Shown here: positions 38,912 through 43,649 of the stretch, in pieces
Layout: each line of letters starts with the position of its first letter
Numbering within the stretch: position 1 is the first letter of the stretch
Assembly (NCBI GenBank): GCA_002189035.1
Contig: NEEC01000009.1
Span: 2,914,001-2,978,000 of the forward strand
Direction: 5' to 3'
Length of the DNA stretch: 64,000 bases
Origin: Utricularia gibba
Lineage: Eukaryota > Streptophyta > Magnoliopsida > Lamiales > Lentibulariaceae
Notes under the pieces: generated by a model
Told to the model about the DNA's origin: nothing
Databases searched by the model: none
Seen by the model: only the letters and a program-made list of their open reading frames with translations
Program-made: the position numbers and the translations under genes

Positions 38912-38917
38912 TATATA
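38912..38917 (+). promoter_or_regulatory. TATA box of the repeat-protein gene
   Basis: TATATA 46 bases upstream of the ATG at 38963, as expected for a plant core promoter with a short leader. Confidence 0.6.
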
Positions 38918-38962: not shown

Positions 38963-40601
38963 ATGGCGTTCTCTCTGAACAACAGGGTTGTTCTCTTGTC
39001 TCTCTTCCTCTCTCTCATTGTGGCGGTGGTCGCGACGGACGTCGAGACCGACTGTGGTACTTGCCCCAAGTACACGCCGCCTGCAACCACCATTCCCAAG
39101 CTCCCACTTCCGCCTGTAACCGGGATTATTCCCAAAGTTGGAGGTATAATTCCTAAAGTGGGAGTTGGGTATCCTAAGATCGGTGTGGGGCATGGACCGC
39201 TCATTGGCGGTAAGGGTGGCGTGGGAGTTGGAGTAGGAGTGGGAGTCGGCATTCCGAAGATCGGAGTGGGACATACGCCTGTCGTCGGTGGTAAGGGTGG
39301 CGTGGGAGTTGGAGTTGGAGTAGGAGTCGGCACTCCCAAGATTGGAGTGGGATATGGGCCTGTCATCGGCGGTCCAAAGGGCGGCGTGGGAGTGGGAGTT
39401 GGAGTTGGCATTCCGAAGATCGGAGTGGGACATACGCCAGTCATCGGCGGTAAGGGTGGCGTGGGAGTCGGAGTTGGAGTGGGAGTTGGCATTCCCAAGA
39501 TCGGAGTGGGACATGGGCCTCTCATCGTCCAAAGGGTGGCGTGGGAGTTGGAGTTGGAGTAGGAATCGGCACTCCCAAGATTGGAGTGGGATATGGGCCT
39601 GTCATCGGCGGTCCAAAGGGCGGCGTGGGAGTGGGAGTTGGAGTGGGAGTTGGCATTCCGAAGATCGGAGTGGGACATACGCCAGTCATCGGCGGTAAGG
39701 GTGGCGTGGGAGTCGGAGTTGGAGTGGGAGTTGGCATTCCAAGATCGGAGTGGGACATGGGCCTCTCATCGGCGGTCCAAAGGGTGGCGTGGGAGTTGGA
39801 GTTGGAGTAGGAATCGGCACTCCCAAGATTGGAGTGGGATATGGGCCTGTCATCGGCGGTCCAAAGGGCGGCGTGGGAGTGGGAGTTGGAGTGGGAGTTG
39901 GCATTCCGAAGATCGGAGTGGGACATACGCCAGTCATCGGCGGTAAGGGTGGCGTGGGAGTCGGAGTTGGAGTGGGAGTTGGCATTCCCAAGATCGGAGT
40001 GGGACATGGGCCTCTCATCGGCGGTCCAAAGGGTGGCGTGGGAGTCGGCATTGGAGTAGGAATTGGCACTCCCAAGATCGGCGTAGGACTTCCACCAGTC
40101 ACCGGCTCTCCAAAGGGTGGAATCGGAGTTGGAATTGGAGTAGGAATCGGCACTCCCAAGATCGGCGTAGGACTTCCCCCCGTCACCGGCTCTCCAAAGG
40201 GTGGAATCGGAGTTGGAATTGGAGTAGGAATTGGGATTCCCAAGATCGGAGTCGGACTTCCACCGGTCGTCGGCACTCCCGAAATTCCCCTCCCACCTAA
40301 AAGTGCCGCCTGCCCACCCCCGCCCGGGAAGGCCAGCCACGCCACATGCCCCGTCGACACCCTGAAGCTCGGCGCTTGTGTCGACGTCCTCGGTGGGCTG
40401 CTCCACATAGGGCTCGGCGATCCCGCCGTAAACACTTGCTGCCCCGTCATCTCCGGTCTCCTGGACCTCGAGGCCGCCGCCTGCCTCTGCACCTCCCTGA
40501 AAATCAAGGCCTTGAGCCTCAACATCTATCTACCGGTCGCACTGGAGCTCCTCATCACCTGTGGGAAAACTCCTCCTGCAGGCTTCACCTGCACGCTCTA
40601 A
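38963..40601 (+). CDS. Secreted hybrid protein: Val-Gly (elastin-like) repeat domain plus eight-cysteine (8CM) domain
   Basis: The gene is intronless; with two indels repaired it would be 547 residues. A signal peptide (VVLLSLFLSLIVAVVA) is followed by DCGTCPKY and a short Pro-rich linker (PPATTIPKLPLPPVTG). About thirteen units of 26-28 residues come next, each close to GVGVGVGIPKIGVGHTPVIG. The last 85 residues are an 8CM domain, C-X9-C-X19-CC-X13-C-X-C-X23-C-X9-C, as in hybrid proline-rich proteins (DC2.15/EARLI1 type). Those proteins sit in the wall or at membranes and act in wall structure, lipid-linked defence or cold response. Here Val-Gly repeats replace the usual proline domain. Two indels break the frame: four bases missing at 39526-39527 and one C missing at 39739-39740. 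Together they return the 8CM to the frame expected from 548 codons. Function of the repeat is unknown. Confidence 0.85.
39251..40260 (+). repeat. Tandem repeat of 78-84 bp units with a 249-bp higher-order repeat
   Basis: Unit starts (the codons before Pro-Lys-Ile-Gly) fall at 39251, 39332, 39410, 39491, 39571, 39655, 39736, 39819, 39903, 39984, 40068, 40152 and 40236. Three unit types, marked HTPVI, HGPLI and YGPVI, recur in fixed order, giving a three-unit repeat. The copies starting at 39410 and 39655 look identical apart from the two indels, and the copy at 39903 matches for its first 138 bases. The coding strand is strongly G-rich. Confidence 0.95.
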
Positions 40602-41783
40602 ACCAGTTGAGCACCTGCCATCCATTACCTTTGTGATAAAGATCATGTGTGTTGATGCATTTTGGCCCCCCTTTTTTTGTTGTTTTCTGCAGATTTGTAC
40701 GTAGAAGAAGCAAGAATCCAAATGGGGTTTCAATTTGTGGCTCTCTCATGCATTTGTTCATTAGTCTTCTTCATGTGTTTTTCCCTCTCTTCTTTTAGTG
40801 TGGAACTCATCTGATCATGCATCTCCCTCATTTGTATTGTTTGTTCGGCAAGCAGAAATAAACAAGTTCTCGTTGTTTCATTCAACTCCATCTTCAAATC
40901 TATTACGAATTTGATCATCGAGATCTTTAAACCTCTAATGTTATCATCCCACAAATGTAAGTTTACTGTAATGTATAGTGATTACCATTATCATTCCAAC
41001 AAGATTAGAACACTTCAAATATCAAAATAGAGATGCAACATGGGTTGATCTTCAAACAAAATTTTTAAAGACTTGGTGTGTGAAGGGCATTTTTGACCTT
41101 TGAAGCAAAAAAAATTGCCAAATAATTTATGATAATTTTGCATCACAATCACAATATACTAAAAGAACCCAAATAATATTTAAAAAATTCAAATGATTGA
41201 GCATAATCAGTTTGAATTTTTTAATCAAATAATTGGACAACAAATGAGTACAAACCCCAGAGGAGAAGGATGGGCAAATTACGGTTTTGTCCCGGGGAAA
41301 GCTGGAAAAGGTCAAGGACAGGTACATGTTTGTTGTGACATGTCACATGAAATTTGTCTTTTCACTACTCCAGAGTGTGTGGTGCCCCGGTGCACAACAT
41401 CCACCGTCCATTCGCATGTGCGCTCATCAGTAGAAAAGAACTTGAACCCGGTTTATTATGGGTTTAAATTAGGTTTAATTATTTAGAAAAATAAATATTA
41501 TTATTTTAACAAATGAAAAACAGAATGAACGTGGTTCAAATACCCGTCCAGGTTCAAAGGAAATTGCAGTAAAATAATAATGGTTAATGATTTTATAGTT
41601 ACCTTTAATTATGTAATATTTATTTACATTTATTATTCTCAGGCATTGGCTAATTCGAAGAAGCCTCTGTGGGCTGTGGGCCGGAATTGTCGGCTCAGGC
41701 CCTTTAGCGAGCGGAGTATGGAGTGCGGCCCAACAGTTAACAACGGCGAGCTACTTGGGCTCGACCGGTTCGAACTCAAACCG
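40602..41783. other. Spacer between convergent genes
   Basis: Holds the 3' untranslated regions of the repeat-protein gene and of the PPR-DYW gene. A short minus-strand frame (40730-40918) could form a coiled coil but has no support as a gene. Otherwise AT-rich. Confidence 0.5.
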
Positions 41784-43649
41784 CTACCAAAAATCTTTGC
41801 AGGAACAAACTCCATTGCAGAAATGGTGGAACCTGTGTCTGTCTCTGAGGACTATTTCTCGATCATAAACTTTTGAGATCAGCTTGCTTGCCTCATGACA
41901 ATCTCTGCATACCCTCAAGTTTTTGGTCACGCGGATCGTTTCACCTGCTTTGGTTTTCAATAGTCCATAAGCAATAGCAAGCTTCTCACTGTGATGGTTC
42001 AATGGATTCTCTGTTTCCTCATCGCTGATATAATGTAGCAATTCACTGGAGTCCGGAAGGTATCCGTGGTATCTGATCCGGGAGAGCATTTCTTCCACTT
42101 TTGCATAGATAGCCTGCGCCTCTGGATGAGTTCTTTCGCCTGCAATGAAATCGCTGATCTTACCATTGACTTCGATTGAGGACAAACCGGGTAGCTTCTT
42201 GACACCCCTGTCATTCATCAGCTTCCTGATGTTGGCAACTTCGTCCCATTTACCGGCTTTGGCATACAGATTTGCTAACAAAGTGTAGCGCCCGCTGTTA
42301 AGCGGCTCTAGTTCTATGACTTGCCACCCGATTTCCTCCGCAATGGCGATGTTGCCATGAATCAGGGAAGCTCCAAGGAGAGCACCAAGGACAGTAACAT
42401 CAGTCTTGTTTGGCATTTCTGCGATGACTTGTCTTGCATCCTCCAGCAAGCCAACCCTCCCAAGCAAATCGACCAAACATCCATAATGCTGCATTCCGGG
42501 TTTGATCCCATGAACTCTTGGCATGTAAGAGAAGTAACGCTTCCCTTCTTCAACCAACCCAGAGTGAGCGCATGCAGCAAGAATGTTGAGAAAAGTCACA
42601 TGATCTGGTTTTACTCTGCAGTCTGATTCCATTCTCTTGAGAAGGTCAATGGCAGCCTTGCCTTTACCATGCATAGCAAATCCTCCAATCAAGCAATTCC
42701 AAGAGGAAACACTTTTTGATGGCAGTTCTTCAAAAACCTGCGATGCCTTGTCCAGTCGACCGCATTTACAGTACATGTTAATCACTGCAGTTGCCAACTT
42801 GGGATCCATTTTTATCCTGTGACTCTTGATCTTCTCGTAAATCCACTCTCCTTGTTCTAGGGCACCAACAGCTGAACATGCAGTCAGCATACTCGTTGCA
42901 ACAAAGTTATCCATAACAACGTTTCCTCTATTCATCTCCTCAAACAGATTAAATGCTTGCTGATACCTGTTATTCTGCACGCATGCAGAAATCACAGCAT
43001 TCCATGCTGCTGAGCTTTTCTCAGGCATTGACACGAACAGATAAATGGCATCATCAACGTATCCCTTTTGTGCCAAACCACAGATAATCGTTGTCCAAGA
43101 AACATCATTCCTGTTGGTAAGTTGATCAAACACCTTAAGTGCACCATCCAAGGAACCAAATATCACATACAAATGCATCAAATTATTCTGACAAAATGAA
43201 TCCTGGGCAAACCCAAATTTTATAACGTGTGCATGGACCTGCTTTGCTTTTTCCAGACCACCACAAGCTCGAATTACAGGAGGAAAAGAGAACTTATTCG
43301 GCAACACAAAACTTCCCAGCATCCCTATATACAAAATAATGCATTCATCGTACATCTCTGCTTCAACAAATCCCCTGAACAAGATGTTGTACATAAAAAC
43401 ATCTGGACGGGGCAAAGACTCGAACACCCTGATGGCATAACTGAAATCCCGTTGTGCAGACAGGGCACAAAATTTAACGACACGGCCCATGGCGTCGTTG
43501 TCGAACGAAAGACCGAGCTTTATGATTTGCGCGTGGTTCTGCTTAAGCACCGCCATGGCTGAGCAAGATTCAAGATTCTTATATACAACAGCCCTCGATG
43601 TTGATACGGGCTGGGCATTTGTCCCCGGAGAAAGATTCACCACATACAT
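41784..43649 (-). CDS. PLS-class PPR protein with E and DYW domains (organelle RNA editing factor)
   Basis: A single frame of 621 residues from the ATG at 43649. Tandem P, L and S pentatricopeptide repeats cover about residues 60-420, for example DVFMYNILFRGFVEAEMYDE and SSAAWNAVISACVQNNRYQQ. E/E+ motifs follow, then the DYW domain. The cytidine-deaminase-like zinc signature is present: HSEKLAIAYGL (HxE), CRDCHEASK (CxxCH), and the C-terminal HHFCNGVCSCKDFW. The terminal tripeptide is DFW, a common variant of DYW. Such proteins bind one or a few organellar transcripts and convert specific C to U. The N-terminus has no obvious long targeting peptide, so mitochondrion versus plastid is open. 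No damage seen. Confidence 0.95.
   Translation of the reverse strand: MYVVNLSPGTNAQPVSTSRAVVYKNLESCSAMAVLKQNHAQIIKLGLSFDNDAMGRVVKFCALSAQRDFSYAIRVFESLPRPDVFMYNILFRGFVEAEMYDECIILYIGMLGSFVLPNKFSFPPVIRACGGLEKAKQVHAHVIKFGFAQDSFCQNNLMHLYVIFGSLDGALKVFDQLTNRNDVSWTTIICGLAQKGYVDDAIYLFVSMPEKSSAAWNAVISACVQNNRYQQAFNLFEEMNRGNVVMDNFVATSMLTACSAVGALEQGEWIYEKIKSHRIKMDPKLATAVINMYCKCGRLDKASQVFEELPSKSVSSWNCLIGGFAMHGKGKAAIDLLKRMESDCRVKPDHVTFLNILAACAHSGLVEEGKRYFSYMPRVHGIKPGMQHYGCLVDLLGRVGLLEDARQVIAEMPNKTDVTVLGALLGASLIHGNIAIAEEIGWQVIELEPLNSGRYTLLANLYAKAGKWDEVANIRKLMNDRGVKKLPGLSSIEVNGKISDFIAGERTHPEAQAIYAKVEEMLSRIRYHGYLPDSSELLHYISDEETENPLNHHSEKLAIAYGLLKTKAGETIRVTKNLRVCRDCHEASKLISKVYDREIVLRDRHRFHHFCNGVCSCKDFW

Follow-up and report, generated by a model that had tools for sequence, protein, structure and literature searches.

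Does the gene at positions 38963 to 40601 encode a single secreted wall protein in which an elastin-like Val-Gly spacer stands in place of a proline-rich domain, as the initial annotation held? The gene lies in a window of 64,000 nucleotides from the Utricularia gibba contig NEEC01000009.1, and all positions given below refer to this window.

Gene layout and family placement

The gene and its surroundings comprise the following features:

38963-40601 (+): the gene, from leader to stop codon
38875-38884 (+): CACGTGCATG, overlapping G-box and RY element, a candidate seed/ABA cis element (motif scan)
38912-38917 (+): TATA box, about 50 bp 5' of the ATG (motif scan)
38963-39034 (+): hydrophobic leader MAFSLNNRVVLLSLFLSLIVAVVA, likely signal peptide (translation, by inspection)
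39035-39175 (+): mature N-terminus and proline-rich bridge TDVETDCGTCPKYTPPATTIPKLPLPPVTGIIPKVGGIIPKVGVGYP (translation; 39096-39175 matches the arm of the paralog L003)
39176-40241 (+): thirteen Val-Gly units of 78-84 bp each (Tandem Repeats Finder, translation, block alignment)
39526-39528 (+): first frame break, loss of 4 bases, ATCGTCC in place of ATCGGCGGTCC (block alignment, ORFs)
39736-39741 (+): second frame break, loss of 1 base with CC for CCC, ATTCCAAG in place of ATTCCCAAG (block alignment, ORFs)
40242-40325 (+): partial fourteenth unit, running into the proline-rich linker KIGVGLPPVVGTPEIPLPPKSAACPPPP (translation; peptide alignment to the paralog)
40344-40598 (+): eight-cysteine domain (8CM; Hydrophob_seed, PF14547; profile matches of 99.5 and 96.2 bits)
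40599-40601 (+): stop codon TAA (ORFs)
40857-40862 (+): AATAAA polyadenylation signal (motif scan)

The TATA box (38912) and the AATAAA signal (40857) flank the gene at plausible places. The G-box/RY composite occurs only once in the 64-kb window, 28 bp 5' of the TATA box, and weakly suggests seed or ABA control. An intact PPR protein of 621 residues with E, E+ and DYW deaminase domains lies tail to tail with the gene (41784-43649, minus strand).

The C-terminus had been described as a standard eight-cysteine domain and this was borne out. The match to PF14547 reached 99.5 bits at about 40344-40592, and the ORF of the window scored 96.2 bits against a cut-off of 23.4. By reading, the cysteines follow the order C..C..CC..CxC..C..C. 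The nearest solved relative of the domain by sequence is the soybean hydrophobic protein 1HYP (phmmer E 3.1e-7), which has the 8CM in common with our gene but is a chain of 80 residues without a repetitive arm.

On its sequence the gene is a relative of the hybrid proline-rich proteins (HyPRPs) with a glycine-rich arm, i.e. of the HyGRP type. The PF14547 match supplies the eight-cysteine domain of the HyPRP/HyGRP family at the C-terminus and the arm, subject to the broken frame, is glycine-rich: over the units of intact length it consists of 41.1% Gly, 21.5% Val, 11.6% Ile, 10.3% Pro and 7.3% Lys. With this composition the units do not form the proline-rich N-terminal domain of a strict HyPRP, and the single continuous coding frame expected of either type is interrupted by two breaks as assembled.

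We found 12 PF14547 loci in the plant's own genome. Among these the closest 8CM is that of L003 (G000:C413:549202-549447) with 85% identity, and in the tree the domain clusters with L003, L006 and L007 (support 91/90). The arm of L003, which is itself broken by one frameshift, is built of classic PKVPVHPPVTE and PKVPVPPPVT units and looks C-type; the clustering with L003 comes from a tree of own-genome sequences. Three other loci (L009, L010 and L011, on G000:C2 and C451) form a separate 8CM group with 100/99 support and carry VYNPPPVYTPPPVVKPPP-type arms.

The Val-Gly array and its physical character

The arm opens with a short proline-rich stretch, TDVETDCGTCPKYTPPATTIPKLPLPPVTG. The count of about thirteen units of Val-Gly and PKIGVG given in the initial annotation agrees with ours, as we found 13 full units and a partial fourteenth. 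The consensus of the unit is KIGVG-[H/Y/L][G/T/P]P[V/L]-[I/V/T]G[G/S]-(P)KGG[V/I]GVG[V/I]GVG[V/I]G[I/T]P. Tandem Repeats Finder reported periods of 84 bp (13.4 copies) and 248 bp (4.5 copies) with scores of 1306-1608, far above chance. The 248-bp period arises because three blocks of three units each, which start at 39338, 39577 and 39825, are nearly identical (block alignment). In a whole-genome search, and within the limits of that search, this was the sole locus of its kind in the plant's own genome. The repeats do take the place of a proline-rich domain over most of the arm, but the short N-terminal bridge and the linker, the only proline-rich parts, still retain that character. Similarly, the regular Lys and His/Tyr attributed to every unit held for Lys, which occurs about twice per unit, whereas the His/Tyr position varies, with Tyr in three units and Leu in the last three.

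The description of the arm as elastin-like found little support, and the label is a weak one for this sequence. As a rule of thumb, chains with a value of 2P+G above 0.6 stay disordered and amyloid-prone chains mostly fall below it (PMC4455251; see also PMC5703643). For the eleven intact-length units the overall value was 0.616, with a range of 0.556-0.654 by unit. Four of the eleven lay under the line at 0.556-0.593, as did the Val-Gly core at 0.583. The longest run of residues without proline is PVIGGKGGVGVGVGVGVGIP, with 18 residues. VPG is absent from every unit, so that the VPGXG motif of elastin-like proteins does not occur, and Lys/Ala cross-linking blocks are absent from the arm. A true elastin-like elastomer would be a disordered, reversibly coacervating wall rubber that is cross-linked via Lys or Tyr. 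The high Gly and Val content with regular Pro, the two Lys per unit and the overall 2P+G just over 0.6 are in its favour. However, since VPGXG is lacking, 2P+G lies near or below 0.6 (in the core and in four units below it) and proline-free runs are long, a purely elastin-like arm is not favoured; the presence of Tyr in only three units and the missing cross-linking blocks argue against it as well. We therefore consider such an elastomer unlikely. More likely than a pure rubber of the elastin type is an arm that combines silk-like and elastomeric features.

At the opposite extreme the arm could fold as an ordered beta-solenoid, as AlphaFold places two strands in each unit with a pLDDT of about 80. 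However, a non-coding antisense frame of the array, which has the same periodicity, also yields a beta model (mean pLDDT 74, pTM 0.74). The AlphaFold model is thus uninformative and we discarded it as evidence. Neither Foldseek nor VIA searches gave a convincing fold match, and we regard the solenoid as very improbable.

The broken reading frame

As assembled, frame A runs from 38963 to 39526 and continues to a stop at 39562, frame B extends over about 39527-39740 and frame C covers 39741-40601 (ORFs, translation). The leader, the middle units and the 8CM lie in these three different frames, the leader is out of frame with the 8CM, and the loss of 4 bases is not offset by that of 1. The claim of a single secreted protein can therefore be upheld only in part: leader, repeats and 8CM are all present, but two frameshifts leave no single open frame across them. 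Introns as the cause of the breaks were ruled out by reading, because the 4 bases and the 1 base missing by comparison with sister units do not constitute introns.

Several observations bear on whether the breaks are real. Blocks 1 and 2 (~248 bp) differ by no substitution at all; their sole differences are the two indels that break the frame and a further, in-frame indel of 6 bp. Seven other PF14547 loci of the same genome are also frame-broken (L003, L004, L007, L008, L009, L010 and L012). All nine breaks that we located in these seven paralogs show a frame offset of 2, equivalent to one base lost on balance; the DNA around them is C-rich, and most fall within or close to C runs. Histone H4, on the other hand, was intact in 7 of 7 copies. 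A generally poor assembly was ruled out on this ground, and any errors would be confined to certain contexts. The intact copies are compatible with an error that depends on C-rich DNA, because in the one H4 gene that we inspected no run of G or C is longer than four.

The breaks in the gene are probably assembly errors, given that the blocks differ by indels only and that the nine paralog breaks are without exception net losses of one base in C-rich DNA; we consider this explanation fairly likely, and likelier than a pseudogene. A common sign and a common context are not what one would expect of real mutations, which favours a systematic error, and the seven broken 8CM loci are probably the product of a context-specific error of this kind in the assembly. 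The case is weaker for the break of 4 bases, which lies outside any homopolymer, than for the break of 1 base. If instead both breaks were real, the locus would be a recent pseudogene and the plant would make a leader-plus-repeat fragment of ~199 residues or nothing. The two uncompensated frameshifts in the assembly and the intact, unrelated H4 genes are consistent with this reading, and the seven broken paralogs could in principle reflect real decay too. It is opposed by the systematic signature of the paralog breaks, by the lack of substitutions between blocks 1 and 2, and by an 8CM and a leader that are otherwise well kept, and we judge it possible but clearly the less probable of the two. 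Differences among the eleven intact-length units fall at codon positions 1, 2 and 3 in 179, 112 and 380 cases, and pN/pS among them is 0.34, although tandem units homogenise and are not independent. This bias towards the third position together with the pN/pS value suggests past translation in frame. For low-complexity, C-rich genes of this assembly in general, neither a pseudogene nor an intact gene can be called without reads.

Origin of the arm and relation to known proteins

To place the arm we made ten DNA comparisons with the arm of L003, each scored against codon shuffles, of which those for the bridge and for unit 12 are the results that we trust. The bridge (39096-39175) matched the proline-rich arm of L003 on the sense strand with a score of 31 (shuffles: 18.9, SD 3.3; 0 of 300 at or above), and unit 12 did so with a score of 27 (shuffles: 17.0, SD 2.9; 1 of 300). 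For units 9 and 10, and for the stretch of units 13-14, the sense match to that arm was not significant, nor did the Val-Gly core match L003 significantly in the DNA alignment. Alignment of units to the paralog at the peptide level was too weak to be used, with 61, 67, 507 and 18 of 1000 shuffles scoring at least as high. A comparison of the window with 40 kb around L003 revealed no synteny beyond the gene itself. A proline-rich HyPRP unit in the same orientation thus appears to be the ancestor of the array's edges, and the Val-Gly core may have expanded from GGNGTN hexanucleotides.

Glycine-rich HyPRP arms have been suggested to arise by inversion of proline-rich ones (Dvorakova et al., PMC2216038). 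If this applied here, the array would stem from an inverted proline-rich coding stretch. In addition to the published precedent in other HyPRPs, the antisense frame reads PTPTPTPTPPLPPMTG, and units 9 and 10 scored slightly better against the L003 arm in antisense (scores equalled or exceeded by 30 and 58 of 300 shuffles). However, none of the antisense scores was convincing or significant, the best being the one reached by 30 of 300 shuffles, and Gly codons necessarily have a Pro-rich complement. As the edges of the array match the proline-rich unit of the paralog on the sense strand, inversion is not needed to explain them; it may still apply to the core, although we hold it to be improbable for this arm as a whole.

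Several known proteins resemble the gene in part. C-type HyPRPs (PMC2216038) and L003 likewise combine a leader, a long repetitive aliphatic arm and an 8CM, but their arms consist of PKVPVPPPVT repeats, whereas the arm here has 41% Gly and 10% Pro. All angiosperm C-type arms have been described as proline-rich (PMC2216038), and the gene would depart from this pattern if it is C-type. The HyGRPs of rice, qLTG3-1/OsHyPRP05 and OsHyPRP21 (PMC4174136), share leader, glycine-rich arm and 8CM with it. As described, however, they measure 124-184 residues and OsHyPRP21 has Gly repeats with Ser, in contrast to the long Val-Gly/PKIGVG units. The C-type HyPRPs of pine (PMC2216038) carry an 8CM and an arm in which Gly and Pro are both abundant, as here, but are by description shorter and a Val-Gly repeat is not mentioned. 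Elastin and elastin-like polypeptides also show low-complexity repeats rich in Val and Gly with spaced Pro and 2P+G near 0.6, but elastin is an unrelated protein, from which the arm differs by the absence of VPGXG and of cross-linking blocks and by its long proline-free runs.

Since glycine-rich arms on 8CM proteins have already been published (PMC2216038, PMC4174136), the fact that the proline-rich domain has been replaced is no novelty as such. Of the unusual spacer that had been claimed, it is the Val-Gly sequence that is unusual. In a search of a collection of open-access papers, we found no report of a Val-Gly/PKIGVG HyPRP or of a plant elastin-like wall protein. Judged by its letters, the Val-Gly arm is an unusual and so far single-copy variant of a documented HyPRP-family architecture.

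We lean towards the following explanation, albeit by no means firmly: the locus is a probably working gene for a secreted wall protein of the HyPRP/HyGRP family, of proline-rich ancestry and with a hydrophobic, self-associating arm, and its frame is interrupted in the assembly where bases have dropped out of near-identical repeats. It shares its ancestry with a paralog bearing a long, aliphatic proline-rich arm, whose PKVPV-PPVT unit is retained in sense orientation at the array's edges. Expansion of GGNGTN hexanucleotides probably gave rise to the Val-Gly blocks, followed by duplication of ~249-bp segments. The leader would export the protein, and at the wall face the compact, hydrophobic 8CM presumably makes contact with lipid or membrane, as membrane association through the 8CM has been suggested for AZI1 (PMC4730328). 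Some 360 residues long and with roughly two lysines in each unit, the arm may act as a hydrophobic, self-associating spacer; its composition sits on the line between elastomeric and beta-aggregating chains. A bolder reading, namely a genuine Val-Gly elastomer or silk that arose from a proline-rich wall protein without inversion, is anchored by a lipid-binding 8CM and is convergent with animal elastic proteins, strikes us as doubtful.

For the family, these results bear on how glycine-rich HyPRPs arise, as the published inversion is unnecessary for the edges of this array. For the plant, such a protein, if produced, would amount to a natural polymer of Val-Gly on a wall protein and would allow a test of the effect of such an arm on wall mechanics.
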